Positions 4,837 through 27,219 of a DNA stretch of 64,000 nt are shown one piece after another. The notes beneath the pieces are model-generated. The model saw nothing but the letters and a program-made list of their open reading frames with translations, did no database searches and was not told the origin of the DNA. A program made the position numbers and the translations under genes. Numbering within the stretch: position 1 is the first letter of the stretch; each line of letters opens with the position of its first letter. The stretch is taken from assembly GCA_015067525.1 (NCBI GenBank), contig SVMH01000007.1:1-64000 (forward strand), in the 5' to 3' direction. The DNA comes from Oscillospiraceae bacterium. Its GTDB lineage: Bacteria; Bacillota; Clostridia; Oscillospirales; Oscillospiraceae.

Positions 4837-4847
4837 ATCTCTGCAAA

Positions 4848-4887
4848 AAAGAAACACTCCGAAGCCAGGCTTCGGAGTGTTTTTTGT
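4848..4887. terminator. Bidirectional terminator between convergent genes
   Basis: aacactccgaag-ccagg-cttcggagtgtt then tttttg. Confidence 0.85.
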
Positions 4888-5873
4888 TATTGCAGCGCCA
4901 GCTTTTCGTTGATCAGCTCCGTCAGCCGCTGGGCGTAGAGGAAGAAACCGTACTCATTGGGGTGGAGTCTGGCGTCGTAGAAATACCGCCTGTCGTGGGG
5001 CACCATGTCGAAGTCGTCGATCACATGGTAGCCATGTTTGGCGGCCAGACGGCCGATGAGGGTGCGGCACACCCGGAAGTCGCCGGCGCGGTAGGTGTCC
5101 AGAAAATCCGAGCGCCACAGGGGCAGGATCATGAACGCCGGGGTGTTGGGGTAGAGCTCCTTGAGCCGGCGCAGAAAGGCGTCGGTGTCGGGGCCGATGT
5201 CGTCGCCCAGCTTTTTGCGCCAGTCGTTGGTGCCGTAGGCCACGGTGATGAAGTCGAAGTGATCACCTGCATAGGCCGGCGTGTTGGGGTCGAAGCAGGC
5301 GCCGCCGATGGCCTGATTGATGATCTCCGCGTCGTAGTACAGCGCCAGACGGTTGGCGTAGCAGGCGCTGGGGTAGTAGGTGTCATAGCCCTGCGTGATG
5401 CTGTCACCGTGCATCAGGATGCGGCGGCGGGGCTTGTAGGGGCGGATGGCGGCGCCGTCCGTCACCGTAACGGAGAGGACGGAGATGGGCGTCACGGCGG
5501 AGAGGAAGATCTGCACGTGGTTTTCCTGCCCGTCCAGATGAACGTGCAGCGTGCCCTCCTGACCGTCGGTGTAGCTGGGCGCGCCCTCGTGGGCGGCCAG
5601 CGTGCCGTTGACCAGTGCGTCCAGACCGAAGTAGGCCCGGTCGGAGATGTGGGGCCCCAGACGGTAGCGCACGGCCACCTCGGCGGCGTCGGTGTAAAAG
5701 TCGAAACGGACGCCGCTGGGGGCGGAAGCGCGGGGACCCAGCTCAGGGCTCTGGCGGGTGAAAGCGTCGGCCTGCTGCGCGCTCATGCGATGGAAGAAGA
5801 AGGCATCGCCCTCCTGCCGGATCTCCAGCGCGCCCAGAGTGACGGAGCGCAGCTGCTCAAGTGTCAGATTCAT
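4887..5873 (-). CDS. SGNH/GDSL hydrolase family protein (copy 1)
   Basis: HGDSITQGYD (block I), AYGTNDW (block III), RLHPNEYGF (block V). Confidence 0.85.
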   Translation of the reverse strand: MNLTLEQLRSVTLGALEIRQEGDAFFFHRMSAQQADAFTRQSPELGPRASAPSGVRFDFYTDAAEVAVRYRLGPHISDRAYFGLDALVNGTLAAHEGAPSYTDGQEGTLHVHLDGQENHVQIFLSAVTPISVLSVTVTDGAAIRPYKPRRRILMHGDSITQGYDTYYPSACYANRLALYYDAEIINQAIGGACFDPNTPAYAGDHFDFITVAYGTNDWRKKLGDDIGPDTDAFLRRLKELYPNTPAFMILPLWRSDFLDTYRAGDFRVCRTLIGRLAAKHGYHVIDDFDMVPHDRRYFYDARLHPNEYGFFLYAQRLTELINEKLALQ

Positions 5874-5882
5874 AATACCACC

Positions 5883-6866
5883 TCAGCTCTGCAGCTTTTC
5901 GTCGATCATCTGGCAAAGGCGCTGGGCGTACAGGTCAAAGCCGATGTCATTGGGGTGGAGATACCCGTCGGAGAACAGGCGGGTGTCGTGGGGCAGCAGG
6001 TCGTAGTCGTCCAGCACGTGGAAGCCCTGGGTGGCGGCCAGCCGTCCGATCAGGGCGCGGCACTCCATAAAGTCGCCGGCGCAGAACTCGCCGTCGTCGG
6101 TGTCGGTGCGCCAGATAGGCAGCACCACGAACACGGGGATCTTGCCGTAGATGATGTTCAGCCGGGCGAAGAAGCCGGCGGCGGCGGCGGTCAGGTCGGC
6201 CATGGTCTTGCCGCGCCAGTCGTTGGTGCCGTAGGCCACCACCACAAAGTCGAACTGACCCACATACTGCAATACTTCGGGGTTGAAGCAGGCAGCGCCC
6301 ACGGCCTGGTTGAGGATCTCGGCGTCATAGTACTGGGCCAGACGGTTGGCGTAGTTCCATGCGGAGAACTGGGCGTCGTAGCCCTGGGTAATGCTGTCGC
6401 CGTGGAACAGGATACGGCGGCTGGCGCGGTGGGGCATGACGGTAGCGCCGTCGGCCAGCGTCACGGCGGCCACGGTCACATCCGTCAGCAGGGGGAAGAA
6501 CACCTGCACGCGGTGCATGCCCTCCGGCAGCGTCAGGCAGAAGCTGCCCTCCGGCTGGGCGGTGCAGTCGGGGGTGCCGCTGTGCAGCGTCATCACGCCG
6601 TCCACCAGCACGTCGAAATAGCAGAAGGTGCGGGCGGAGGACAGCTTGGCGTTGCACCAGCGCAGCGCCAGAATGGGGGAGTCGGTGTAGAAATCCAGCC
6701 GCACGCCGCTGGTGGTGGCGATCTTCAGCAGGAACTCGGGGTTCGCTTCGCCAAAGGCGGCCGTCTGCATGGGCAGCGCGCGGAAAAAGTGGAAACCGTC
6801 GCTGTCCTCCCGGATATCCAGCGCGCCCATGGTAATGGTCTGCAGCTGGGAAAGATTCAGATCCAT
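5883..6866 (-). CDS. SGNH/GDSL hydrolase family protein (copy 2, tandem paralogue)
   Basis: FHGDSITQGYD, VAYGTNDWRGK, GYLHPNDIGFDLYAQRL; colinear with 4887-5873 product. Confidence 0.85.
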   Translation of the reverse strand: MDLNLSQLQTITMGALDIREDSDGFHFFRALPMQTAAFGEANPEFLLKIATTSGVRLDFYTDSPILALRWCNAKLSSARTFCYFDVLVDGVMTLHSGTPDCTAQPEGSFCLTLPEGMHRVQVFFPLLTDVTVAAVTLADGATVMPHRASRRILFHGDSITQGYDAQFSAWNYANRLAQYYDAEILNQAVGAACFNPEVLQYVGQFDFVVVAYGTNDWRGKTMADLTAAAAGFFARLNIIYGKIPVFVVLPIWRTDTDDGEFCAGDFMECRALIGRLAATQGFHVLDDYDLLPHDTRLFSDGYLHPNDIGFDLYAQRLCQMIDEKLQS

Positions 6867-6878
6867 AGCTAACCTCGC

Positions 6879-7898
6879 TTAGAAACCGTAGATCATGTCG
6901 CGGGTGATGTCGCTCAGGCTGTGGGCGCCGCACATGGCCATGGTGTCGGCCAGCTCGGCCTTCAGCTTGTCCACATACACCTGCACGCCCTCGGCGCCGC
7001 CGCCGTAGACCATGGTCACGAAGGGACGGCCGATCAGCACGCCGTCGGCACCCAGAGCCAGCGCCTTGAACACGTCCATACCGCTGCGGATACCGCCGTC
7101 CACCAGAACGGTCATCTTGCCGCCCACGGCGTCAACGATGGCGGGCAGGACTTCGGCGGTGGCGGGGCACTGATCCAGCACGCGGCCGCCGTGGTTGGAC
7201 ACCACAATGCCGCTGGCGCCGGCTTCCAGAGCCTTCAGCGCACCCTTGACGGTCATGATGCCCTTGAGGATGAAGGGGACTTCGGCGATCTTGGCGATCT
7301 CAGCCAGTTCCTCCACCGTCTTGCTGCCGGCGGGGGGCGTCAGATTCTTCAGGAAGGGCAGACCGGCCGCGTCGATATCCATGGCGATGGCGATGGGGCC
7401 GGAGGGCTTGACCATGCCCATCTTCTGGCGGATCAGGTCGATGTTCCAGGGCTTGATGGTGGGGACACCCTTGCCTTCCGCCTTGGCCAGCGCGTTGGCA
7501 GCGGCCTCGATGACGGCGGGGTTGGTGCCGTCGCCGGTGAAGGCGGCGATGCCGGCGTCGGCACAGGCGGACACCAGAATGTCGTTATATTCCAGATCGG
7601 TGTACTTGTCGCCGTAGTGCAGCTGCATGGCGCCCACGGGGGCGGCAAACACGGGCAGCACAAACTCGCGGCCGAAGAGGCGGGCGGTGGTGTCCACGGG
7701 GATATTTTCACAGATGGTGTCCATGTTGACGCACAGCTCCTGCCACTTCTGGTAGTTGCGGATGGCGCCGGTGCCTAGACCCTTGGCGCCGGGGCCGGGA
7801 ACGGTGTTCTTGCAGGCCATACCGTTGCACACGGGGCAAGCCTTGCAATAGGGGCCCATGCTGCCGCGGGCCTGCTGCAGAATCTCCTGATAGTTCAT
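6879..7898 (-). CDS. FMN-dependent alpha-hydroxy-acid oxidizing protein with N-terminal Cys cluster
   Basis: GIVVSNHGGRVLDQCPAT and VDGGIRSGMDVFKALALGADGVLIGRP typical of the LldD family; N-terminal CKACPVCNGMAC. Confidence 0.88.
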   Translation of the reverse strand: MNYQEILQQARGSMGPYCKACPVCNGMACKNTVPGPGAKGLGTGAIRNYQKWQELCVNMDTICENIPVDTTARLFGREFVLPVFAAPVGAMQLHYGDKYTDLEYNDILVSACADAGIAAFTGDGTNPAVIEAAANALAKAEGKGVPTIKPWNIDLIRQKMGMVKPSGPIAIAMDIDAAGLPFLKNLTPPAGSKTVEELAEIAKIAEVPFILKGIMTVKGALKALEAGASGIVVSNHGGRVLDQCPATAEVLPAIVDAVGGKMTVLVDGGIRSGMDVFKALALGADGVLIGRPFVTMVYGGGAEGVQVYVDKLKAELADTMAMCGAHSLSDITRDMIYGF

Positions 7899-7981
7899 GT
7901 CGGATCCTCCCTGTTTTGATCAAAGTAGCTTCATTTTACCACTAAGCTGCGGCGCTTTGCAACCGCTTTGCCGCTTTTTCC

Positions 7982-8010
7982 TTGCCGCAAAGCGGCTTGT
8001 GGGGTATAAT
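7982..8010 (+). promoter_or_regulatory. Putative sigma-A promoter upstream of MBL-fold gene
   Basis: TTGCCG-N17-TATAAT. Confidence 0.6.
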
Positions 8011-8040
8011 AAAGGCAAAATCAGAAACGGAGGGATCGTT

Positions 8041-8655
8041 ATGCGTATTTCCTGGCTGGGTCACGCCTGTTTTGCGGTGGAGCATGAGGGCTATCGGGTG
8101 GTCATCGACCCGTTCTGCGATGTGCCGGGCTGCCGCGACGTGTCGGCAGAGGCGGAAGAGGTGCTGTGCAGCCACGGCCATTTTGACCACGCCTATACCA
8201 AAGGCGTCACGCTGCATCTGGGCAAGGAGAGTCCCTTTACCGTGGAGACGGTGGACACCTTCCACGATGAAAAGGGCGGCGCTCTGCGCGGGCGCAATAC
8301 GGTCCACATCCTGCGCGCCGGCGGCAAAACGCTGGTGCATCTGGGCGATCTGGGCCATCCCCTCAGCGCCGGGCAGGCGGAAAAGCTGCGCTGCTGCGAT
8401 GTGCTGCTGATCCCCGTCGGCGGCGTCTACACTGTGGACGGCGCTGCCGCGGCATCGGTGGTCAGGGCGCTGCAGCCCCGCACCGCCATCCCCATGCACT
8501 ATCGCGGCGACGGCTTTGGCTTTGACAATATCGGCACGCTGGATGACTTTTTGTGCCATTTTGCCGCAGACGAGGTGCATTTTGCCAACGGAAGCACCGT
8601 GGCGGTGGATGAAGCGCTGCCCTGCGGCGTGGTGGTGCCGGCCTTTCCTGTATAA
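8041..8655 (+). CDS. MBL-fold metal-dependent hydrolase (UlaG/YtkL-like)
   Basis: MRISWLGHACFAVEHEGYRVVIDP...CSHGHFDHAY...IPMHYRGDGFG; start at 8041 behind an RBS. Confidence 0.85.
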   Translation: MRISWLGHACFAVEHEGYRVVIDPFCDVPGCRDVSAEAEEVLCSHGHFDHAYTKGVTLHLGKESPFTVETVDTFHDEKGGALRGRNTVHILRAGGKTLVHLGDLGHPLSAGQAEKLRCCDVLLIPVGGVYTVDGAAAASVVRALQPRTAIPMHYRGDGFGFDNIGTLDDFLCHFAADEVHFANGSTVAVDEALPCGVVVPAFPV

Positions 8656-14016: not shown

Positions 14017-15336
14017 ATGAGTGAGAAACTGATCGTCCTGTCCATGGATGCCATGGTGAGCGAGGACATTGCCTATCTGAAGACGAAGCCCAATTTTTCC
14101 CGTCTGTTCCGTAACTGCGCCCAGGTGGAGAAGATGTGCACCGTTTATCCCAGCATCACCTATCCCGCCCACGTCAGCATGATGACCGGCTGCCGCCCCG
14201 GCAAGCACGGCATCTTCAATAACCACCACTTCAAGTCCGAACTGCCCTATCCCGACTGGTACCTGTACAACTCCGACATCCATGTGGAGAACGTGTTCGC
14301 CGCCGCCAAGCGCGCCGGCAAGACCACCGCTGCCGTGTACTGGCCTGTCACCGGCAACGACCCCAACATCGACTACCTCATCAACGAGTACTTCTTCTAT
14401 GCCGGTGAGGACGTGGAAGAGATGTTCGCCAAGTTCGGCGCCAACGAGGATACCCTCAACGTCATCCGTGAGAACGCACACCGTCTGCCCACCAACCGCA
14501 AGAAGGAAGAGCGGATGTATCTGCGCAACGGTTTTGATGACTTTATCATGGGCTGCATGTGCAGCCTGATCCGCAACCACCAGCCCGACCTGCTGATGGT
14601 GCACAACTGCTGGATGGACTCCACCCGTCACCGCTACGGTGTGTTCAACGAGTACACCCGCGAGGGTCTGGATCTGACCGATATGTGGCTGGGTCAGGTC
14701 ATCAAGGCGCTGGAAGATGCCGGTATTTACGATGAGACCAACTTCGTTCTGGTCAGCGACCATGGCCAGCGCGACTTTGCACGCCGCATGAAGCCCAATG
14801 TGCTGCTGCGCCGCGGCGGCTTCTTCGACGTCACGGAGGATGGCAAGGTGGGCGACTGGCGCGCCTATGCCCAGTCCAACGGCATGTCCTTCAGCGTGTT
14901 CCTGAAGGATAAGAACGACGAGGTCACCAAGAAGCAGGTCTACGAGTATCTGCAGCAGCTGCAGGCCGAGGGCGTCTGGGGCGTGGGTAAGATCCGCACC
15001 GAGGAAGAGGCCCGTGCCGAATATGGCCTGTACGGCGACTTCTCCTTCATCATCGAGACCGACGGCTACACCACCTACTCCGATGCATGGCAGGAGCCTG
15101 TCATCAGCGGTATCGACTTCAGCGACTACCGTCTGGGCAACGCCACCCACGGCTATGAGCCCGAGACCGGCGCACAGCCCGTGTTCGTGGCCCGTGGTCC
15201 CGCCTTCAAGGCCGGCTTCTTCCGTGAGCGCGGCCGCGTCATCGACGAGGCTCCCACCTATGCCTACATTCTGGGCGACTCCCTGCCCGAGGCTGAGGGC
15301 AGCGTCATGATGGATGTTCTGGCCGAGGGCCGCTGA
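14017..15336 (+). CDS. Alkaline phosphatase family / nucleotide pyrophosphatase-phosphodiesterase
   Basis: LSMDAMVSEDIAYLKT...YPSITYPAHVSMMTGCRPGKHGIFNN...LVSDHGQRDF metal-binding motifs. Confidence 0.88.
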   Translation: MSEKLIVLSMDAMVSEDIAYLKTKPNFSRLFRNCAQVEKMCTVYPSITYPAHVSMMTGCRPGKHGIFNNHHFKSELPYPDWYLYNSDIHVENVFAAAKRAGKTTAAVYWPVTGNDPNIDYLINEYFFYAGEDVEEMFAKFGANEDTLNVIRENAHRLPTNRKKEERMYLRNGFDDFIMGCMCSLIRNHQPDLLMVHNCWMDSTRHRYGVFNEYTREGLDLTDMWLGQVIKALEDAGIYDETNFVLVSDHGQRDFARRMKPNVLLRRGGFFDVTEDGKVGDWRAYAQSNGMSFSVFLKDKNDEVTKKQVYEYLQQLQAEGVWGVGKIRTEEEARAEYGLYGDFSFIIETDGYTTYSDAWQEPVISGIDFSDYRLGNATHGYEPETGAQPVFVARGPAFKAGFFRERGRVIDEAPTYAYILGDSLPEAEGSVMMDVLAEGR

Positions 15337-15353
15337 GCCGACAACTACCGATA

Positions 15354-15392
15354 AAAAGGACAGCTTCGCAACCGCGAAGCTGTCTTTTTTTG
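15354..15392 (+). terminator. Rho-independent terminator
   Basis: gacagcttcgc-aacc-gcgaagctgtc then ttttttt. Confidence 0.9.
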
Positions 15393-15717
15393 TTGCGAAA
15401 ACATTGGCAACATTGTCAAATAATAGTCGTATTCCAAAAGAGAAAATGGGATATTTCTATAGAAAGAGGGGGGGGAACAGAGGGGTGTTGTGTTGAAGGC
15501 GAAACAATATTTGCAAGTTTTGATAATATTTATCGATGGAAGTTGTGAGAAGTGCACAGAAAATGAAAGCAAAATTGGCCATATCGCAGAAAACTGGCAT
15601 GAGTAAGGAGACTTACTTGACTGAATTTGCCAAAAAAGATAAAATTGCTGGTATAAAACCAGAATGCCGATGAACGGTGGGCTTTATCGCACGGTAAAAC
15701 CAAAAGGAGGAACGATC

Positions 15718-18700
15718 ATGAGTGAAGTGGAAACCAAGACCGCGGAAACCGGTAAGAAGAAAAAGCTTCCGCTGCTGATTTTGCTGGCGGTGCTGCTGAT
15801 CGGCGGCATCGGCGCGGCAGTGGCGCTTCTGGGCGGCGGCGAGGATGACGCCTGGCTGCGCAAAGCTCTGGCAGACGAGTCTGTCAGTACCATTGAACTC
15901 AACGAGGACATCAAGGCAACGGAAGGCTATGAGGTCAACGGTACCAAGACCATCGTCGGTACCGGCAAGATCTCCATGACCACGGACAGCAGCTATGTCT
16001 TCAGCGTTAACGACGGCGCTTCGCTGACGGTGGACGGCATCGCGGTCAACGTGATGAATATCGGTGCCAACGGCGTGGTGGTCCGCTCCGGTGGCGCGCT
16101 GGAGTGGAAGAGCGGTACGCTGTCCTATCCCAAGCAGTATGCCGTCATGAGCTACGGCGATACGAAGATCTCCGGCGGTACTTTTGAATTTGCCGGCACC
16201 AACTGGCTGTATGTCAAGAGCGGTACCAAGGCCGAGGTCACCGGCGGCCACTTCGTCAAATCCGGCGCTGTGGGCTTTGAGGTGGAAAAAGATGCCGAGC
16301 TCTCGATCAGCGGCAAGGATACGCTGATCGAACGCGCCGGCACCAACACCATCAATAACTACGGAAAGGTCACGCTGACCGAGGCCACCATCTCCGCTTC
16401 CGAGGTGTGGACCGTCACCAACCACGGCGAGCTGCTGATGGACGGCGCCATTGTGAAGGACTGTTCTGTCAAGGGCGTGCTTTATAATTACAAGGACGCT
16501 GTCTCTGCCGAGATCCGCAACTGTACCTTCTCCGGAAGTAAGACCTATCACATCTATAACCAGCACGAGGTCACCATCAAGGATACGGATATGTCCGATT
16601 CCGGCGCTTCCTCGCTGAACAACCAGCCCGGTGCCATCATGAACATTGAGAACGTGACGCTGACCAACTGCGGCTATCACGCTATCTACAATGACCGCGG
16701 CACCATGAACATCAAGAACTGCGACATCGACACCACGGTGTACAAGGGCGTGCAGAACAAGACCGGCTATGTCACCATCGACGGCATGACCCTCAATAAC
16801 GTAGGCGGTGCCGGCCTTGGCAACGTGGCCTATGTTACCGGCGGCGGTTATGGCTACATCCACGCCAACAATGTCACCGCCACCAACACGGTGGACTACA
16901 ACGTGGTCAGCTACGGCGGTGAGCTGAAGCTGAGCAACAGCGTGATGAATGTGACCCCCGGTGCCAACGTGTACATCCGCAACGGCACTTTCGAGCTGGA
17001 CAACGTCCAGATCCTGGGCACCAAAAATCCCGGTAAGGTGGCACTGGCACTGGGTTCTGACACCTACCGCACGGTGGAAGGCTCTATCAAGGGTAACACC
17101 GTCATCAAGGGCAGTGCCTCCCGCGGCGTGACCAACTACGGCACGCTGTATATCTACGGCGGCACCATCACCGGCAACAAGCCCTCCGGCACCTCCAAGG
17201 CCGGCGGCGGTATCTATACCCTGGGCAAAGTGTATATGTACGGTGGCTCCATCACCGGCAACACCGCCCTGACTTACGGCGGCGGTATCCGTGTGGACTC
17301 CGATGAGAAGAGCGTGGGCAGCCTGTACATGTACGGCGGCTCCATCTCCGGCAATAAGGCCGGCAGCAACGGCGGCGGTATCTCCATCGCCGATCCCGCC
17401 TGCGGCCTGTACCTGCACGGCGGCACGGTGGCCAACAACGTATCTGACGCCAAGGGCGACGGCATCCTCATCAACGGCAAGTTTGACCTGTATAACGGTG
17501 CAGCTATCAAGAATAACGATGTCTACATCTTCGAGGCCGGCCAGTACATCAATGTCAAGTCTGAGTCTCTGGCAAACAATGTCATCACCGTGCGCCATGG
17601 CGCCCTGAGCGAGGGTACTGTGGTGGCCAAGTTCCCCAGTGAGGCTGCTGCAGCCGCGCTGGCTGACCGCTTCGTCAGCGGCAACGATCAGTTCACCTTC
17701 GAAGTGGACGGTAAGGATCTGGTGGCCCGCATCACGGCCAAGGATCTGGAGTCCCCCGCGGACTTTGCTGACGCCAAGACTGTGACCGTCACCACCTTCG
17801 CCCAGCTCAAGAGCGCGGTGGAGAGCACCAAGGGCGAGAAGATCATCAAGATCGCTGCCGATATCCCCATGACCGGTATCATCCGCGTGCCCGCTTCCGC
17901 CTCCGTCAAGCTCATTGACGACGGCACGGCCCGCACGCTCAAGCGCTCTGGTTATCAGGGCGAGCTGTTCTATCTGAACAACGAGGCCAACCTCTATGTG
18001 GCCGGCACGGCCGGTCTGACGCTGGACGGCGCATCTGACACCGTTCTGGCCGAAAAGCCCCTCATCTTTGCCACGGCCAACTCCTACGTGGTGCTGGAGA
18101 GCGGCGCTGTGCTGCAGAACAACACCAACACCAGCTATGCCACCTCCGCCTGTGCCGGCGCCGTGAATCTGTATGGCGGCCGCATGATCGTGGACGGCGG
18201 TATCATCCGCAACTGCAACGGCCCGACCTATGAAACGGCTGACAGCGGCATGACCAACCGTCCCGCCGTGTATGTGTCCACCACCGGCGTGGTGTCCGTC
18301 AAGGGCGGCGAGATCTCCGGCAGCCAGAACGGCGCCATCCGCAGCTATGGCCGCGTGTACGTCTCCGGCGGCGAGATCAAGGATAATGTCCGCAGCGGCG
18401 ACGGCGGCGCAGCCATCCGCGCTCCGTGGATCTACATGACCGGCGGTACCATCTCCGGCAACAAGAGCACCAACGGCGGCGGTGCGGTCTACCTGACTCC
18501 CTCCGAGGCCATCCCCGAGGGCTACTTCTACATGAGCGGCGGCAGCATCACCGGCAACTTCTCCGGTGTGAACGATGCCGACCCCAACTACGACTTTGAC
18601 ACCGTGGGCGGCGCGGTCTATGTGGACCAGAACTGTGTGTTCGACTGCGTGGCCGGTACCATCAGCAACAACCAGGCCATCGGTGACAAGACCGGCAGCT

Positions 18701-21700
18701 CCATCGGTCAGAACGGCGGCGGCATCGTCAACGACGGCGTGGTCTACCTGCGCAGCGGTGCGGTGGTCAGCGGCAACTATGCCACCCGTAACGGCGGCGG
18801 CATCTTCTGCCGCAACAAGGGCGCCCAGCTCATCATTGAGGGCGCTGCCATTTCCGGCAACTATACCGATGGCCGCGGCGGCGGTATCTTCAGCGAAGGC
18901 GCTGACAACACCGTCACCATCACCGGCGCTACCATTGAGAACAACAAGGCGCTCGGCGGCGGCGGTATCCTCTTCGGCGGCGGCGTGGCCAGCGTGACCG
19001 ACACGGTCTTCCGCGGCAACGAGGCCCAGCGCACCGGCAGCAGCTACGGCAACGCCGGCGCCATCATGAACCAGAGCAGCACCAAGCTGACGCTGACCAA
19101 CGTCACCTTCGACGGCAACAAGGCCATCGCCAAGGATGGCGGCGGCGGATGCGGCGGCGCTGTCTATAACGACAAGGCGGACATCGTCATCAACGGCATC
19201 GTCAGCAAGAACAACGAGGCTCGCGTGGCAGATGACATCTTCATCAGCAAGAACACCCTCAGCAACAGCGTGTCCGGCGCCTTCGACGTCACCGAGGTCT
19301 ATCTCGAGGGCAGCGAGACGCTGGTCATCGGCGAGAACTTCACCGGCCGCAGTGATAACGGCCTGATCCTGGTGGATCTGCCCAACGGCAGCAGCACCAA
19401 CCGCTATCTGGCCGGCGAGCAGCTGCTGGAAGGCAATGTCGGCGAGACTGTGGCGGCCCTGTTCACCCTGGGCAGCGACTATGCCGACCTGGCTATCGGC
19501 GCCGACGGCAAGATCGTGGGCGGCCAGACGCCCGACCAGCCCGATACGCCCGTCATCCCCGAGGGTCCCGCAGCCCAGATCGGCGAGCAGAAGTATGACA
19601 CGCTGGCCGAGGCCGTGGCCGCCGCACAGGCAGGCGACACCATCGTCATCATCAACGACATGATCCTCGCCGACACCCTGACCATTGAAAAGACCATCAC
19701 CATCACCACCGACGGTGTGGCCGACCGCACCATCTACAGCGCGGTGGAAGGTGCGGACTACTACATCAACGTCAAGGCTGACGGCGTGGTCATCACCGGC
19801 AGTGAGAACTCCCGCCTCATCATCGACGGCGAGGGCAAAACTCACCAAAGAGGTCTGGTGGCCCTGCAGGGTGCCGGCTGCAAGCTGGAATATGTGACGC
19901 TGCAGAACAATGTCAGCACCTATAACGGCGGCGGTCTGTACACCAACAAAACCGGCGGCGTGCTGAACAGCGTGGAATTCATCAACTGCAAGGCCGAGGG
20001 CGCGGAGCTGTGCGGCGGCGCGCTGTACCTGACCAGCAGCGGCGGCGTGACGGCCACCAACTGCCTGTTTGAGGGCAACGAGGCTACCTACCGCGGCGGC
20101 GCTGTGTACGCTGCAGGCAGCGCGGTATTCACCGCTGAGGGCTGCACCTTCAAGAGCAACAAAGCCGTTGAAAACCGCGGCGGCGCCATCTATGCCGTTG
20201 CCAACGTGACGCTGACCCTGACCGACTGCGTATTCGACGGCAATGAGGCCAAGGACTCCGGCGGCGCCATCCTCAGCGCCAAGGCATCTGACCAGCTCAT
20301 CACCGGCTGTACCTTTACCAATAACACCTCCGGTAACTTCGGCGGCGCGGTGGGCTTCTCCTCCGGCGCCAGCACCGTGACGCTGGACAGCTGCACCTTC
20401 TCCGGCAACACGGCCAACGGCACCGGCAACTTCACCGGCGGCGCCATCTCCGTGGGCACGACTGTCACCGTCACCGGCGGCGAGACCTACATCACCTACA
20501 ACGCAGCCCCCAACGGCTACGGCGGCGGTATCGGTACCCAGAAGGCTGTGGGCACCGCCAGCGTGACCGTGAACGAGGGTGCCACCCTGCACATCTACGG
20601 CAACACCCAGAAGTCCGGCGGCGAGGTGTCCTTCAAGGCGGAGGACGGCGCCATTACCAACAATGGCACCCTCGTCACCGAGGCTCCCGAAGATCCTCAT
20701 GTGGCCAAGATCGGCGAGACCGGCTATGCCACGCTGGCTGAGGCGGTGGCCGCCGCCCAGAGCGGTGACACCGTGGTACTGGTGAGCGACGCGGTGCTGA
20801 CTGAGACGCTGGCCATCGACAAGGCCATCACCCTTACCACCGACGGGCTGGGCAAGCGCACCGTTACCGGTGACGCGGCCCTGACCGGCAGCTTCTTTAA
20901 GGTAACGTCCGGCGGCGTGAAGCTGTCCGGCACGGCCGACAGCCGCCTCATGATCGACGGCGCGGGCGTGGAGCGCGACAGCCTGATTGCTGTGGAGTGC
21001 GCTGATGCAGCTGACACCGTGACCGCGGAATATGTGACAGTCTGCAACGCCAAGAGCAAGAGTAACGGCAGCGCCGTCAGCATCACCAAGGGCAAGCTGG
21101 CTGCTGCAAACTGCATCTTTGACAAGAACGAAGTGGACGCACAGGCCGATAAGAGCGGCAGCGGCGGCGCCATCTATCTGGCAGCCACCAACTCCGCGGC
21201 CGACCTGATCGACTGCACCTTCACCGGCAACAAGGCCAACTACCGCGGTGGCGCCATCTACGCCAATAAGGAAGTGCCTGTGGTGCTGACGGGCTGCGTG
21301 TTTGACGGCAACAGTGCCGGCAACGCAGGCGGTGCCATCCTGTCCGGCAAGACCGACGGCCAGCTCATCACCGATTGCGAGTTTACCGACAACACGGCCG
21401 GTGCTTTCGGCGGCGCGGTGGGCTTCTCTGCCGGCGCCAGCACTGTGACGCTGGACGGCTGCACCTTCACCGGCAACATTGCCAACGGCACCCAGAAGTA
21501 TGCCGGCGGCGCCATCTCCGTGGGTACGGCGCTGACCGTTACCGGCGGCGAGACCTGCATCACCGGTAACGCGGCACCCAATGGCTACGGCGGCGGCATC
21601 GGCACCCAGAAGGCCGTGGGCACTGCCAGCGTGACCGTGAACGAAGGCGCCACGCTGCATATCTACGGCAACACCCAAAAGACCGGCGGTGAGGTGTCCT

Positions 21701-22674
21701 TCTCTGCGGTTGACGGCACCATCACCAACAATGGTACCCTTGTCACCGAGGCTCCTGTTTATCCTGCCATGATCGGCACCACCGGCTACGCCAGTCTGGC
21801 GGAGGCCGTGGCTGCTGCCAATGCCGGCGACACCGTGGTGATCTGCGCCGATGTGGAGCTCAACGGCACTCTGACGGTCGACAAGGCCATCACCATTGCC
21901 ACCGACGGCGTGGCTGACCGCACCATCACCGGCTCTCCCAGCGCGGGCAACTACTACATCAACATCAAGGCCGATGCGCCTGTGGCCATCAAGGGCACTG
22001 CTGCTTCTCGCCTGATCATCGACGGTGAGAGTGCCACCCACGACAGAGGTCTGGTAGCCGTACAGACGGCGGACAGCGTGCTGGAGTACGTGGTGCTGCA
22101 AAACAACATCAACGGCAACGCTGACAATCTGGGCGGCGCGCTGTATGTCAATAAGACCGGCGTGGCACTCAATAACTGCGTGCTGCAGGGCAATAAGTCT
22201 GGCGGTGGCGGCGCTGCCTACCTGACCGGTGCGGCCGCAGTGGTCATGACCAACTGCCAGATTACCGGCAATAACTCCACCAAGTACGGAGGTGCATTCC
22301 AGGGTGCTGGCGGTAGTATTCTGACGCTAAAGGGCTGCGTGGTGGAAAGCAATACGGCCTCCAACGTGGGTGGTGCGGCCTATATGGCACAGAGCAGCGG
22401 CAATCCTGCCACCATTGTGGCCGATGGCACCATCTTCAAGGCAAACTCCACTACGGCCACCGGCGGCGTAATCCGTGCTACCGGTGCGTTCCAGCTGACC
22501 GACTGCACCTTCGAGGGCAACTCCGGCAGCGACGGTGACATCAGCGAGGGCAACACCACTGCATACACCCGCACCGTGACCAACTGCGTGTTCGACAAGA
22601 CCGAGGGTGCTGCCATCGCCAAGAAGGATCCCACTCAAGTGGTGGTCAGTGGCTGCACCTTTGCGGCTGAATAA
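15718..22674 (+). CDS. Giant (2318 aa) right-handed parallel beta-helix repeat surface protein, N-terminal TM anchor
   Basis: RBS aaaggagg; KKKKLPLLILLAVLLIGGIGAAVALL TM; dozens of G(G)xI/V..N.A...GGGI/AIY coils; three large C-terminal modules beginning AxIGxxxYxxLAEAVAAA. Confidence 0.85.
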   Translation: MSEVETKTAETGKKKKLPLLILLAVLLIGGIGAAVALLGGGEDDAWLRKALADESVSTIELNEDIKATEGYEVNGTKTIVGTGKISMTTDSSYVFSVNDGASLTVDGIAVNVMNIGANGVVVRSGGALEWKSGTLSYPKQYAVMSYGDTKISGGTFEFAGTNWLYVKSGTKAEVTGGHFVKSGAVGFEVEKDAELSISGKDTLIERAGTNTINNYGKVTLTEATISASEVWTVTNHGELLMDGAIVKDCSVKGVLYNYKDAVSAEIRNCTFSGSKTYHIYNQHEVTIKDTDMSDSGASSLNNQPGAIMNIENVTLTNCGYHAIYNDRGTMNIKNCDIDTTVYKGVQNKTGYVTIDGMTLNNVGGAGLGNVAYVTGGGYGYIHANNVTATNTVDYNVVSYGGELKLSNSVMNVTPGANVYIRNGTFELDNVQILGTKNPGKVALALGSDTYRTVEGSIKGNTVIKGSASRGVTNYGTLYIYGGTITGNKPSGTSKAGGGIYTLGKVYMYGGSITGNTALTYGGGIRVDSDEKSVGSLYMYGGSISGNKAGSNGGGISIADPACGLYLHGGTVANNVSDAKGDGILINGKFDLYNGAAIKNNDVYIFEAGQYINVKSESLANNVITVRHGALSEGTVVAKFPSEAAAAALADRFVSGNDQFTFEVDGKDLVARITAKDLESPADFADAKTVTVTTFAQLKSAVESTKGEKIIKIAADIPMTGIIRVPASASVKLIDDGTARTLKRSGYQGELFYLNNEANLYVAGTAGLTLDGASDTVLAEKPLIFATANSYVVLESGAVLQNNTNTSYATSACAGAVNLYGGRMIVDGGIIRNCNGPTYETADSGMTNRPAVYVSTTGVVSVKGGEISGSQNGAIRSYGRVYVSGGEIKDNVRSGDGGAAIRAPWIYMTGGTISGNKSTNGGGAVYLTPSEAIPEGYFYMSGGSITGNFSGVNDADPNYDFDTVGGAVYVDQNCVFDCVAGTISNNQAIGDKTGSSIGQNGGGIVNDGVVYLRSGAVVSGNYATRNGGGIFCRNKGAQLIIEGAAISGNYTDGRGGGIFSEGADNTVTITGATIENNKALGGGGILFGGGVASVTDTVFRGNEAQRTGSSYGNAGAIMNQSSTKLTLTNVTFDGNKAIAKDGGGGCGGAVYNDKADIVINGIVSKNNEARVADDIFISKNTLSNSVSGAFDVTEVYLEGSETLVIGENFTGRSDNGLILVDLPNGSSTNRYLAGEQLLEGNVGETVAALFTLGSDYADLAIGADGKIVGGQTPDQPDTPVIPEGPAAQIGEQKYDTLAEAVAAAQAGDTIVIINDMILADTLTIEKTITITTDGVADRTIYSAVEGADYYINVKADGVVITGSENSRLIIDGEGKTHQRGLVALQGAGCKLEYVTLQNNVSTYNGGGLYTNKTGGVLNSVEFINCKAEGAELCGGALYLTSSGGVTATNCLFEGNEATYRGGAVYAAGSAVFTAEGCTFKSNKAVENRGGAIYAVANVTLTLTDCVFDGNEAKDSGGAILSAKASDQLITGCTFTNNTSGNFGGAVGFSSGASTVTLDSCTFSGNTANGTGNFTGGAISVGTTVTVTGGETYITYNAAPNGYGGGIGTQKAVGTASVTVNEGATLHIYGNTQKSGGEVSFKAEDGAITNNGTLVTEAPEDPHVAKIGETGYATLAEAVAAAQSGDTVVLVSDAVLTETLAIDKAITLTTDGLGKRTVTGDAALTGSFFKVTSGGVKLSGTADSRLMIDGAGVERDSLIAVECADAADTVTAEYVTVCNAKSKSNGSAVSITKGKLAAANCIFDKNEVDAQADKSGSGGAIYLAATNSAADLIDCTFTGNKANYRGGAIYANKEVPVVLTGCVFDGNSAGNAGGAILSGKTDGQLITDCEFTDNTAGAFGGAVGFSAGASTVTLDGCTFTGNIANGTQKYAGGAISVGTALTVTGGETCITGNAAPNGYGGGIGTQKAVGTASVTVNEGATLHIYGNTQKTGGEVSFSAVDGTITNNGTLVTEAPVYPAMIGTTGYASLAEAVAAANAGDTVVICADVELNGTLTVDKAITIATDGVADRTITGSPSAGNYYINIKADAPVAIKGTAASRLIIDGESATHDRGLVAVQTADSVLEYVVLQNNINGNADNLGGALYVNKTGVALNNCVLQGNKSGGGGAAYLTGAAAVVMTNCQITGNNSTKYGGAFQGAGGSILTLKGCVVESNTASNVGGAAYMAQSSGNPATIVADGTIFKANSTTATGGVIRATGAFQLTDCTFEGNSGSDGDISEGNTTAYTRTVTNCVFDKTEGAAIAKKDPTQVVVSGCTFAAE
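19570..22671 (+). repeat. Three large modules inside the beta-helix gene (about 19570-20700, 20701-21762, 21763-22671)
   Basis: Each starts AQIGEQKYDTLAEAVAAAQAGDT / AKIGETGYATLAEAVAAAQSGDT / AMIGTTGYASLAEAVAAANAGDT; modules 1 and 2 share NAAPNGYGGGIGTQKAVGTASVTVNEGATLHIYGNTQK exactly, offset 1068 bp. Confidence 0.85.
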
Positions 22675-22707
22675 ACAGCAACTGCACGATATCTAAACAA
22701 CACCTAA

Positions 22708-22732
22708 GGGGGGCGGGCATAGCCCGCCCCCC
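22708..22732 (+). other. GC-rich hairpin between beta-helix gene and lipoprotein genes, no U-tract
   Basis: ggggggcgggc-ata-gcccgcccccc. Confidence 0.7.
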
Positions 22733-22825
22733 TGCACCGATACGGAGGAAAGTTCGCCGCACGAATGATCTTCCCCTGAAACGTTATCTTTTTCCTTTTT
22801 TGTAAAAACCAAACAGGAGGAAATC

Positions 22826-24451
22826 ATGATGAAAAAGAGAATCCTTTCCCTGCTGCTGATGCTCTCCCTGCTGCTGGGCCTGACGGCCTGCGGCGGCGGT
22901 GGCGGTACGGCTTCTGCCGATGTGACACTGAGTGACGGCGGCTATAAGATCGTCTATCCCGCCGACGCTACCGACGAGATCATGTCCACCGTCAGCTACC
23001 TGCAGACGGCTTTGCAGCAGCTGACCGGCGCGGAATTTAAGGCCGAAGAGGATATGGCCACCAGTCCCTCTGCCGACAGCAAGGAGATCCTGGTGGGCGC
23101 CACTGACCGCGACGAATCGAAGACTGCCATTTCCGGCATGAGCGGCTCGGGCGAATACATGGTGAAGGTCAGTGGCAGCAAAATCGTGCTGGCCGGCATG
23201 CTGGACATGGGCGTGCAGGAAGCCGCCGAAAAACTGGTGGCTGACTTGAAGGCTGCTGGTGCGCCTTACACGATTGCAGGCAGTTACGCCGTCAAGGGTA
23301 CCAGTGAGTCCCCCGTGCAGTATCTGCCCGCATATAACTACGGTGCGCTGCAGACCAGCTACGACTGCGGCGACGGTGTGGATATGCTGATCTATGACTA
23401 CGACAAGGACGGCTTTGCCTCCTACTGCAAGGATCTGGAGAGCGCCGGCTTTGCCAAGTATACCGACAATGCTATTGCGGACAACAGCTTTGCCACCTAC
23501 ACCAAGGACGGCGTCATGGCCCATGTGATGAGCCTGCCGGCGCTGGACAGCGTTCGCATCGTGGCCCAGAAGGACGCGGTGCTGCCCGCCCTGCAGAGCG
23601 AAAAGGTGACGGCTGCGGTGCAGCCCAGCATCACCCAGCTGGGTCTGGAGGGCTATGAGGTCTCCGGCAACACCAACCAGAAGGGCATGAGCTATCTCTA
23701 TCAGCTCTCCGACGGCAGCTTTATCATCGTTGACGGCGGCCACAACAAGGCCGAGGCTGCCGATCAGCTGCTGAATACCATGAAGGCTCTGGCTCCCAAC
23801 GCCGCCAACATCATGGTGCGGGCCTGGTTCATCAGTCACGCCCATCCCGACCATGTGGGATGCTTTATCTACTTCGCCGACCACCATGCCGACGCGGCAA
23901 AGGTGGAGCAGGTCATCTGTAACCTGCCCAATGATCTGGAGATGGACGGCGGCTCCGACTCCACCTCCGACTACCGCGATCAGGTCTATGCTGCCGCTGA
24001 AAAGCTGGGCGCACAGATGATGAAGACCTACACCGGTCAGGTGCATTATATCGGCGACGCCGTGATCGAGGTGCTGTGCAGCATCGAGGTGGTGGCGCCC
24101 CAGACCTTTGCCGACTACAATAACTCCTCCCTCATCTTCTCTGTGGAGCTGGGCGGCCAAAAGATCATGCAGCTGGCTGACTGCGGCCCCCTGCAGAGCC
24201 CCATCATGACCGGCCTGTACGGCGACACCCTCAAGAGCAGCATCGTACAGAACGGCCACCATGGCTACCGCGGCGCTACTGTGGCGCTGTATCAGGCGAT
24301 TGATCCGGACTACATGTTCTGGCCCGGCGGCAGCCGCGTGTACGAGAACTATAAGGGCGAGGATTATAACGCATGGGTGCTGGGCCGCGTGAAGGAGAAT
24401 TGGCTGGCGCTGGACAAGGTCATCACTAAGACGCTGCCCATCGGCGGATAA
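22826..24451 (+). CDS. Lipoprotein: GH67N/GH20b-like N-terminal domain plus MBL-fold hydrolase domain (paralogue 1)
   Basis: Lipobox LLLGLTACGG; IVYPADATDEIMSTVSYLQTALQQLTGAEFK...EILVGATDRDES; HAHPDH metal motif. Confidence 0.75.
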   Translation: MMKKRILSLLLMLSLLLGLTACGGGGGTASADVTLSDGGYKIVYPADATDEIMSTVSYLQTALQQLTGAEFKAEEDMATSPSADSKEILVGATDRDESKTAISGMSGSGEYMVKVSGSKIVLAGMLDMGVQEAAEKLVADLKAAGAPYTIAGSYAVKGTSESPVQYLPAYNYGALQTSYDCGDGVDMLIYDYDKDGFASYCKDLESAGFAKYTDNAIADNSFATYTKDGVMAHVMSLPALDSVRIVAQKDAVLPALQSEKVTAAVQPSITQLGLEGYEVSGNTNQKGMSYLYQLSDGSFIIVDGGHNKAEAADQLLNTMKALAPNAANIMVRAWFISHAHPDHVGCFIYFADHHADAAKVEQVICNLPNDLEMDGGSDSTSDYRDQVYAAAEKLGAQMMKTYTGQVHYIGDAVIEVLCSIEVVAPQTFADYNNSSLIFSVELGGQKIMQLADCGPLQSPIMTGLYGDTLKSSIVQNGHHGYRGATVALYQAIDPDYMFWPGGSRVYENYKGEDYNAWVLGRVKENWLALDKVITKTLPIGG

Positions 24452-24467
24452 AGAGAGGAAGCGCAAC

Positions 24468-26114
24468 TTGAAACACATTTATCGACGTCTTGCGGCGCTG
24501 GCACTGGTACTGCTGCTGGCGCTGACAGGCTGTGCTCCAGCGGAACAAAAAGAGGAAGCGCTGACGCTGGCAGATAACGGCGTTACGGAGTTTCGCGTGG
24601 TCTACGGCGCCGGCTGCACGCAGCAGACGGTGGATGCCGCCTCTGTGCTGCAAAAAGAGATCGAGCGTCTGACCGGCGCATCGCTGAGCGGCGGCGAGGA
24701 TCTGGCCACCACGCCCACCGCGGACAGCTGGGAGATCCTGCTGGGCAGCTGCGACCGCAGCGAGGATGACACCGTATACGCCGCGCTGCGCAGCATCGCC
24801 GACTATCGGGTGCAGGTGCAGGGCCGCAAGCTGGTCATCGCTGCGACCAGGGACGACAGCCTCCTGGCCGCCGTGCAGGCGCTGTGTCTGGTGCTGGGCG
24901 ACTATACGGAAAACGGCAAGATGGTGCTGCCGGCCGATTTTCTGCTGACCGGAGGCGCGGACGGAGAGGGGGAACCTGGGATCCCTGTATTTGCCGGCGG
25001 CACGCTGCGCGCCGGCGTGGACGGCGGCAACGGCACAGAACTGTTGATCTACAGTGCCGACAGCAAAGACTGTGACGCCTATCTCAAGGCGCTGGATGGG
25101 GCGGGCTACGCCCTGCACGCGCAGCATGAGATCGACGGCAACCGATACTTCACTTGCGTGGGCAACGGCGCTACCGTTACGGTGATGGATACGCCTGCCA
25201 TGGGCGCGGTACGCGTCAGCGTGGACCCTGCGGAGTATCTCTTGCCCACCCAGCCGGAAAAGACGGATGCCGTGGTGCAGCCCAGCGTGACGCTGCTGGG
25301 CCTAGAGGGTTACAACACCAACAGCGCACCCACCCAGACGGGTTTGAGCATGCTCTACCAGCTCTCCGACGGCCGATTCATCGTGGTGGATGGCGGACAC
25401 AATAAGATCCAGGCATCCGGCCCTATCTACAAAACCATGGCTAAGCTGGCGCCTGATCCGGACAATATCACCGTGGCCGCATGGCTCGTCACCCACTCCC
25501 ACAACGACCACGCCGGCGCCTTTATCAGCTTCTGCCGCAACTACGGCAAAAAGGTCACCGTGGAAAAGGTGCTGGTCAACTTCCCCGGCGACGGGCAGTA
25601 CACATCCTCCTCCACCGGTACCTCCTATAAGGAGAATGTGCTGGCTGAGGCGGAAAAGCTGTCCGGTACGCAGATCATTAAGGTCCATCCCGGCCAAGTG
25701 TTCTATCTGGGTGATGCGGTGATGGAGATCCTTTACACGCTGGACCTGTATGAGCCGGACAGGCTGGTGGATTTCAATGACTCCTCCATCGTTTGCTCCA
25801 TAACACTGGGAGGCCAGCGCATGCTGGTCACCGGCGACTGCGGTGTGCTCAGCAGCAACATTTTGTGCCGTTTGTATGACGGCGCCTTGCGCAGTGACAT
25901 CGTGCAGATGTCCCACCACGGCTATCAGGGTGCCACGGAGGAGCTGTATCGGGCGGTGGACCCGCTGTATGTGCTGTGGCCCTCCGGTTCCACTACGTAT
26001 GAACGTTACAAGACAGCATCCAACAACACATGGCTTTTGCAGGAATCCCACATGGAGCGGCTGTGGCTGGCGGAGGATAAAATTCAGACGCTGCCGCTGC
26101 CCATCGGCGGGTGA
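24468..26114 (+). CDS. Lipoprotein: GH67N/GH20b-like N-terminal domain plus MBL-fold hydrolase domain (paralogue 2)
   Basis: Lipobox LLLALTGCAP; VVYGAGCTQQTVDAASVLQKEIERLTGASL...EILLGSCDRSED; HSHNDH metal motif; colinear with upstream gene. Confidence 0.75.
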   Translation: MKHIYRRLAALALVLLLALTGCAPAEQKEEALTLADNGVTEFRVVYGAGCTQQTVDAASVLQKEIERLTGASLSGGEDLATTPTADSWEILLGSCDRSEDDTVYAALRSIADYRVQVQGRKLVIAATRDDSLLAAVQALCLVLGDYTENGKMVLPADFLLTGGADGEGEPGIPVFAGGTLRAGVDGGNGTELLIYSADSKDCDAYLKALDGAGYALHAQHEIDGNRYFTCVGNGATVTVMDTPAMGAVRVSVDPAEYLLPTQPEKTDAVVQPSVTLLGLEGYNTNSAPTQTGLSMLYQLSDGRFIVVDGGHNKIQASGPIYKTMAKLAPDPDNITVAAWLVTHSHNDHAGAFISFCRNYGKKVTVEKVLVNFPGDGQYTSSSTGTSYKENVLAEAEKLSGTQIIKVHPGQVFYLGDAVMEILYTLDLYEPDRLVDFNDSSIVCSITLGGQRMLVTGDCGVLSSNILCRLYDGALRSDIVQMSHHGYQGATEELYRAVDPLYVLWPSGSTTYERYKTASNNTWLLQESHMERLWLAEDKIQTLPLPIGG

Positions 26115-26128
26115 GGGAAGGAGAGAAT

Positions 26129-27184
26129 ATGAAGCGTCTTGCTTCCAAGCTGTTGGCCACTTCACTGGCGGCGCTGATGCTGCTGGGCCTGACGGCCTGC
26201 CAAAAGGAGGTGCAACCGCCCTATGTCAGCCGGCTGCCGCAGGAGCTTGAGCCATATGCCCTTGCGTGGCAACTGGACGCGCCGGAACTGGCCGGACGCC
26301 GCGGCGAGATCCACTACTACTTCATGGCCGGCGAGGGCATGGTGATCAATGCCGCCTCGGACTATCCGGAGAAATGGGGCGACGCTACGCTGGTGGTGTT
26401 CCCCAACGGCGAGACCATGCTTATTGATGCGGCTATGGGCGCTTATGCGCCGGTGCTGGTGGAAAATCTCCGCCGTCTTGGCGTGGAAAAACTGGACTAT
26501 CTCTTCATCTCCCACCCCCATGATGACCACTCCTACGGTGCCTTGGTGGAAGGCGGCGTGCTGGACAGCTTCGAGGTGGGCACGGCTTATCACAGCGGTC
26601 TGGTCAACGCCGCGTGGAGCAAGTATTCGCTGCCGGAGATTTTTGCCGGGCGCGGCATTCCGGCGCAGGAGCTGAAGGCGGGAGATGTGCTGACCATCGG
26701 CGGTGTGGAACTGAAGGTTTTCAGTCCTGAGGACTGTACCGGCGGCGTCACCGCCAAGGGTAGTACCAATATCAATAACCTCTCGCTGGTGGTGCGCTTT
26801 ACCTATGGCGAGCATACCGCCCTCTTCACCGGTGACATCTATGTGGAGCGGGAGCGGGAACTGGTGCTGCAGTACGGCCGAGAGCTGGATGTGGACCTCC
26901 TCAAGATGCCTCACCACGGCACCGAGGTGTCCAATTCCAGAGATTTTGCCAAGGTCACCAGTCCTGAGATCGCCGTAGCCATGGGCCGGCGAATGGTGCA
27001 GAAGGAGAACTATTACTACTATGCTGCCGAGGGTGCCCGGGTGCTGATGGACGAGCATGACGGCTATATCCATATCAGCTCCGACGGTAAAACGATGGCG
27101 TATGAGACTAGCCGTCAGCGTCTCATCGATACACCGCTCAAGCAGCAGTACGCCGCTCTGGACAAGTGGGCGGGGCTGGAATGA
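26129..27184 (+). CDS. Lipoprotein: ComEC/Rec2-like MBL-fold hydrolase (paralogue 3, lacks GH67N-like domain)
   Basis: Lipobox LLGLTACQK; ISHPHDDHSYG; LFTGDIYVERE; KMPHHGTEVS. Confidence 0.8.
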   Translation: MKRLASKLLATSLAALMLLGLTACQKEVQPPYVSRLPQELEPYALAWQLDAPELAGRRGEIHYYFMAGEGMVINAASDYPEKWGDATLVVFPNGETMLIDAAMGAYAPVLVENLRRLGVEKLDYLFISHPHDDHSYGALVEGGVLDSFEVGTAYHSGLVNAAWSKYSLPEIFAGRGIPAQELKAGDVLTIGGVELKVFSPEDCTGGVTAKGSTNINNLSLVVRFTYGEHTALFTGDIYVERERELVLQYGRELDVDLLKMPHHGTEVSNSRDFAKVTSPEIAVAMGRRMVQKENYYYYAAEGARVLMDEHDGYIHISSDGKTMAYETSRQRLIDTPLKQQYAALDKWAGLE

Positions 27185-27219
27185 GAAAAAACAGGAGCGC
27201 TGCGCGCTCCTGTTTTTTC
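27185..27219. terminator. Bidirectional terminator
   Basis: acaggagcgc-tgc-gcgctcctgt flanked by A/T tracts. Confidence 0.85.

Follow-up and report, generated by a model that had tools for sequence, protein, structure and literature searches.

A giant beta-helix protein and three metallo-beta-lactamase (MBL)-fold lipoproteins, encoded one after the other in an Oscillospiraceae genome (G000), could well form the extracellular half of a surface module that captures, cleaves, and imports material for nutrient acquisition. Such a module would be a surface nutrient locus analogous to Gram-positive polysaccharide-utilization loci (PULs) but equipped with MBL hydrolases, an assignment made with moderate confidence for the class of function and with low confidence for the substrate. 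The observations considered here are gene order, domain composition, metal-ligand pattern, conservation, gene fusions, and linkage to importers. The window, i.e. the whole stretch of 64,000 nucleotides that was analyzed, lies on contig C5; the assembly comprises 1.97 Mb in 87 contigs (~85% complete). Most of the genomes compared with it are drafts or MAGs, genes at the fetched loci were called by a simple codon-usage script, and single-protein matches above ~1e-6, mostly signal-peptide matches, were ignored.

Organization of the cassette

A preceding sequence-only reading had named a 2318-aa beta-helix protein and three lipoproteins encoded in the same direction with the motifs HAHPDH, HSHNDH, and HPHDDH. 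Gene calls, Pfam domains, and lipoboxes confirm all four genes as real, and all are located on the + strand. The giant protein (15718..22674, +; 2318 aa) is documented by Pfam, a model of residues 38-691, and an orthologue in a relative of the same genus, the MAG Oscillospiraceae bacterium SIG485 (locus L033, taken as genome G207). It is followed by MBL1 (22826..24451, +; 541 aa), documented by Pfam, alignments, a structural model, and Foldseek, by its paralogue MBL2 (24468..26114, +; 548 aa, TTG start), identified by Pfam and alignments, and by MBL3 (26129..27184, +; 351 aa), a ComEC/CbpE-like MBL with Pfam and sequence matches and a counterpart in L033. The start of the giant gene at 15718 is preceded by GGAGG, and a further in-frame ATG is present upstream at 15664. 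The intergenic gaps amount to 151, 16, and 14 bp, in this order, and the genes are presumed to be co-transcribed. A strong terminator (~15354..15391, z = -7.9) parts the cassette from an upstream gene, and a second one (27184..27217, z = -6.2), common to the cassette and a convergent SpoVT-type gene, closes it.

The 151-bp gap between the giant gene and MBL1 harbors a very stable G+C hairpin (22707..22733, +; z = -4.2) with a 12-bp stem, a 3-base loop, and no T tract directly after it; a similar hairpin is found at the equivalent place in L033 (z = -5.4). This structure may determine how much enzyme is made relative to the giant, or split the transcripts, and could uncouple the beta-helix gene from the MBL genes. 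A search for the hairpin pattern elsewhere in the window yielded no hit, a result of little weight because the 5-base loop of the pattern also misses the known 3-base loop. The gene upstream of the cassette (14017..15336, +) encodes a type I phosphodiesterase of the NPP/alkaline phosphatase superfamily, assigned by Pfam and 57% identical to its L033 counterpart, with no export signal seen. It is probably associated with the cassette, as the L033 cluster, as far as it was read, ends with its counterpart; its placement is different, just upstream of the cassette behind the terminator in the window and at the end of the run in L033. Two further frames in the window deserve mention. A 2162-aa open frame antisense to the giant gene (15613-22101, -) is regarded as a side effect of repetitive, G+C-rich coding and not as a gene, and another MBL-fold protein (Lactamase_B_3; 7897-8655, +) is apparently cytoplasmic and unrelated to the cassette.

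The giant protein begins with a K-rich cytoplasmic tail. The long hydrophobic segment that follows shows no obvious cleavage site and is predicted to act as a signal anchor; no LPXTG motif was seen. The remainder consists of tandem right-handed beta-helix domains, several blocks of which open with IGxxxYxTLxEAVAAAxxGDT. Pfam reports Beta_helix in eight stretches (2.3e-29), and AlphaFold models residues 38-691 as a nearly all-beta structure (mean pLDDT 81, pTM 0.80), which together place the protein among the right-handed beta-helix proteins. A PDB sequence search gave no match, and Foldseek with the modeled part returned nothing significant (best E 0.037): matches to PL6, GH28, and other folds were insignificant, as was a weak similarity to Ag43 and pertactin. 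The latter is shared with PMP/autotransporter-type adhesins, which the giant also resembles in its GGAIY and FTGN repeats and a Pfam Chlam_PMP match. Unlike these adhesins, it would be signal-anchored in a Gram-positive cell, and no autotransporter barrel was seen.

The three MBL lipoproteins

Each MBL begins with a lipobox signal and carries a Pfam Lactamase_B domain (6.8e-10, 8.1e-9, and 1.6e-11, respectively). MBL1 and MBL2 are 40% identical and are composed, after the signal, of three parts: an accessory domain of GH20/GH67 type, a linker domain, and an MBL domain of ComEC/Pce type. The linker comprises ~100 residues and is shared, in conserved form, by all relatives; none of the Pfam families reported here includes it. 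Putative metal ligands of MBL1 (H338, H340, D342, H343, D452, H478, and H479) are invariant in an alignment of 14 sequences, and the third-motif histidine of typical MBLs is absent from MBL1-type sequences, as it is from ComEC. The MBL fold, the HxHxDH motif, D452, and HHG identify these proteins as members of the metallo-beta-lactamase superfamily.

A PDB sequence search with MBL1 gave no meaningful match, and its AlphaFold model (pLDDT 78.7) matched the MBL domain of ComEC best (E 3.9e-10), followed by an MBL-fold arylsulfatase (8gyg). Shorter matches of ~120-170 columns concern a lacto-N-biosidase, an alpha-glucuronidase, GH84, and GH115. They would fit the accessory domain of glycosidases and, judged by their length on the model, the N-terminal part of MBL1; the entries matched over ~150-170 columns are 4h04, 1h41, 6pv4, and 4c91, which represent GH20, GH67, GH84, and GH115. 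In glycosidases this domain precedes a TIM barrel, whereas here it precedes the linker and the MBL domain or, in a protein on contig C23, a GDPD domain.

MBL3 lacks the accessory and linker domains and belongs to a different, ComEC/CbpE-like subfamily, with sequence matches to ComEC and, remotely, to the phosphorylcholine esterase CbpE. The closest relative in fold and sequence is the C-terminal MBL nuclease domain of ComEC (PDB 9ic4). This domain is a Mn-dependent phosphodiesterase that degrades DNA, and among structural homologues Pce is nearest to it (PMC12455585). HxHxDH or HxDxDH, the later D and HHG ligands, and the missing third-motif histidine are common to ComEC and the MBLs described here. 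Unlike ComEC, the latter are predicted to be lipid-anchored stand-alone proteins without channel or OB domain, and MBL1 and MBL2 carry the accessory and linker domains in addition. In a test for ComEC/Rec2 equivalogs, MBL3 scored 58 bits against a cut-off of 190, with the MBL part alone matching. Pce/CbpE (PDB 1wra, 2bib, 12qj) are surface MBL-fold phosphodiesterases, as MBL3 might be in view of its sequence match; this similarity is remote and confined to the catalytic domain, and in place of choline-binding repeats, of which Pfam reported none, MBL3 carries a lipid anchor. Two other assignments were rejected. A class B beta-lactamase conferring beta-lactam resistance is discounted, as all matches lie far below curated cut-offs, and so is a defence system, as the matches to Avs1a, LmuA, and 6A-MBL are weak and the cassette contains no defence partner.

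Recurrence in relatives and linkage to importers

The adjacency of the genes, whose absence from relatives would have spoken against the sequence-only reading, is conserved. L033 keeps the beta-helix gene, MBL1, and MBL2 in order at 58-64% identity (60-64% for the beta-helix orthologue), and the pairing of giant and MBL recurs at further loci in the genus and in the cassette's own genome. Codons of the beta-helix gene, MBL1, and MBL2 are under purifying selection, since dN/dS versus the L033 relative is ~0.24 (first 700 aa), 0.31, and 0.33, respectively. In L033, MBL2 is followed by two permeases, a solute-binding protein, an MBL3-like lipoprotein (16462-17427; 31% identity to MBL3), an FGGY kinase, an OCD-like protein, and the type I phosphodiesterase. 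The L033 beta-helix protein itself contains an internal MBL domain (residues ~2206-2565) with 35% identity to MBL1/MBL2. An opine dehydrogenase-type gene was noticed by eye near this cluster (L082, 6317-7399).

Further cassettes are present in the same genome. On contig C20, two permeases and a binding protein come first, followed by two MBL lipoproteins and a PHP hydrolase; an anchored beta-helix protein of ~2134 aa completes the series. Contig C23 shows a beta-helix/MBL/HAD fusion together with permeases, a binding protein, and an MBL lipoprotein, as well as an OCD-like protein (89% identity to the L033 counterpart); further along, an anchored beta-helix protein is flanked by a phosphatase lipoprotein and a GDPD lipoprotein, the latter with the accessory domain of MBL1. 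The fusion is a single frame (C23 ~4103-6982; L034 4166-6982) of beta-helix repeat, linker-MBL, and complete HAD hydrolase, in which no clear export signal was seen; it may be genuine or may result from a sequence error that merged two genes. MlrC-like M81 genes, accompanied by FGGY kinases and DeoR-type regulators, lie near several cassettes (L040, L041, L063, L074), and three of them are located on C23 (L040 and L041 being G000:C23).

Within the genus, the full linker-MBL domain was detected in five of 32 genomes (G000, G207, G203, G214, and G215). Strong matches to the giants are restricted to the identical five, and three other genomes show weak repeat matches. The naive chance of this coincidence, 1/C(32,5) = 5e-6, overstates the case because the five genomes represent two related groups. 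At six loci of the genus, an MBL gene, a giant gene, and an ABC importer are adjacent (L069 and L070 in G203, L074 and L075 in G214, L076 and L077 in G215), and 1 to 135 bp separate the MBL gene from the giant gene. The giants of these three genomes are GLUG-type, i.e. of another repeat type, with no Pfam match. An opine (octopine/nopaline) dehydrogenase-type gene and an amino acid permease adjoin the module at L069 and L076.

Across the order, linker-MBL matches (E up to 1e-15, full-length or partial) occur in 81 of 394 genomes, as stand-alone lipoproteins, tandem copies, and proteins fused to repeat domains. Linker-MBL is joined to beta-helix or comparable repeats in the own genome and in other families (L034, L073, L086, L092, and L097), and L092 shows a lectin-like domain after the MBL. 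In the other families, the linker-MBL protein often has no giant neighbor. The three-part module of MBL, giant, and importer applies to the genus and not to the order, since the importer is mostly absent from the fetched stretches of the wider relatives. Three further loci were noticed: four tandem lipoprotein or lipoprotein-like linker-MBL copies in another family (L089; G338:C20:56431-63389), three genes resembling, by eye, the neutral ceramidase N-terminal domain beside a linker-MBL gene (L083; G401:C14), and a tandem pair of ComEC-like MBL lipoproteins that converges with the gene for a secreted protein of 2244 aa and has no importer nearby (L078, 9923-12015; G210:C41).

Like Gram-positive PULs, the modules combine anchored proteins, a binding protein with two permeases, and kinase/isomerase enzymes in one run; they differ in their anchored components, MBL-fold hydrolases and a giant beta-helix protein. 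The importer genes characteristic of PULs are present in L033, L034, L064, L069, L070, and L074-L077, and no importer adjoins the cassette within the window. None of the scanned module proteins matched a GH or PL family above cut-off, and one neighbor in L075 gave a sub-threshold GH20 match. The modules are accompanied by phosphoesterases (NPP-type, PHP, GDPD lipoprotein, and alkaline phosphatase) and by catabolic genes (sugar isomerase, FGGY kinase, and GFO/IDH). Their importers are of two types, one Ugp-like and the other Lpl-like, so that the substrate may differ among loci. UgpA and UgpB are the best matches for the importer genes of L033, C20, and C23; compared with the UgpABCE glycerol-3-phosphate importer, scores are far below the equivalog cut-offs, and the UgpB tryptophans are not kept. 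The NQRET arginine of glycerol kinases is missing from the FGGY kinase. Glycerol-3-phosphate, suggested by the Ugp- and GlpK-like genes, was not accepted as substrate, as the binding residues differ.

Proposed function and competing explanations

The sequence-only reading had proposed a cell-surface processing apparatus. Its functional link between beta-helix and MBL is well supported, because the adjacency is conserved, several fusions exist, and both components co-occur. A location of the proteins at the surface is predicted from their signal sequences. The importer of the relatives, the accessory domain, the kinship with ComEC/Pce, and the phosphoesterase neighbors were not part of that reading. 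Combined with these, the process can be envisaged as follows. Retained in the membrane by its signal anchor, the beta-helix protein would span the wall and offer a docking surface, either as scaffold or as receptor. The lipid-anchored MBL1 and MBL2, a dedicated hydrolase pair, and MBL3 would then cut the captured material by a two-metal active site of ComEC/Pce type. Small products would enter via a CUT1-type ABC importer, encoded in the same gene run in relatives and on other contigs here, and be processed by cytoplasmic kinases and phosphoesterases.

A phosphodiester is the most probable bond, to judge by analogy, since the ComEC domain and Pce act on phosphodiesters and several phosphoesterase families are found in the neighborhoods; it would be situated in a glycan, a polyol-phosphate, or a teichoic-acid-like polymer. 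The accessory domain, the sugar-type importers, the catabolic genes, and the lectin-like domain of L092 point to a carbohydrate or polyol as substrate. Resemblance to the MBL superfamily is insufficient to fix the reaction, and no substrate-specific enzyme fixes the substrate. The same surface arrangement might instead cut a carbohydrate sulfate ester, a lactone, or an acyl ester. The arylsulfatase ranking second in Foldseek, the catalytic diversity of the MBL fold, and the glycosidase origin of the accessory domain would agree with this, but the ComEC-like ligand pattern without third-motif histidine and the phosphoesterase neighbors favor phosphodiesters, and another bond is considered unlikely.

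Somewhat less likely again is the scavenging of extracellular DNA, in which the MBLs would be secreted ComEC-type nucleases and the beta-helix protein would hold DNA or biofilm matrix. The nearest structural and sequence relatives are indeed nuclease domains of ComEC, which degrade DNA (PMC12455585). However, a glycosidase-type accessory domain, sugar-type importers, and the lectin-like domain of L092 speak against such a role, sugar isomerase, FGGY kinase, and GFO/IDH genes adjoin the modules, no DNA-binding domain was seen, and no nucleoside importer was noticed beside the modules, where none was searched for specifically. It is more doubtful still that the giant is an ordinary adhesin and the lipoproteins are unrelated exoenzymes, placed next to it by chance and split off by hairpin and gap. 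The strong hairpin in the 151-bp gap and the linker-MBL proteins found alone in other families speak for this explanation; the kept adjacency, the repeated fusions, and the co-occurrence speak against it, as do the missing T tract of the hairpin and its presence at the equivalent site in L033. Self-directed wall remodeling or defence, with MBLs trimming the cell's own teichoic acids or acting against phages or competitors, is very improbable. The similarity to CbpE/Pce and the weak defence-MBL matches would agree with it, but the defence matches are superfamily-level and, where cut-offs are given by NCBIfam, far below them, the modules are flanked by importers and catabolic genes, and the distribution in the genus is patchy.

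For the module of capture, cleavage, and import, the parts are known folds. Their combination, the linker-MBL family, and its recurrence with giants and importers are undescribed in the open-licence literature searched. Tentatively, and at less than even confidence, the modules may represent an undescribed Gram-positive class of surface nutrient systems, in which a giant tethered beta-helix scaffold cooperates with dedicated MBL hydrolases that replace glycosidases, cut phosphodiester-linked glycans or polyol-phosphates, and feed CUT1 importers, and which has been duplicated and fused across the order. If this is true, many uncultured Oscillospiraceae-type bacteria would reach, via surface MBL hydrolases, a nutrient that is missed by searches for carbohydrate-active enzymes. 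A widespread anonymous domain family would thereby gain a function, and giant beta-helix proteins, mostly labeled as adhesins, would gain a role.
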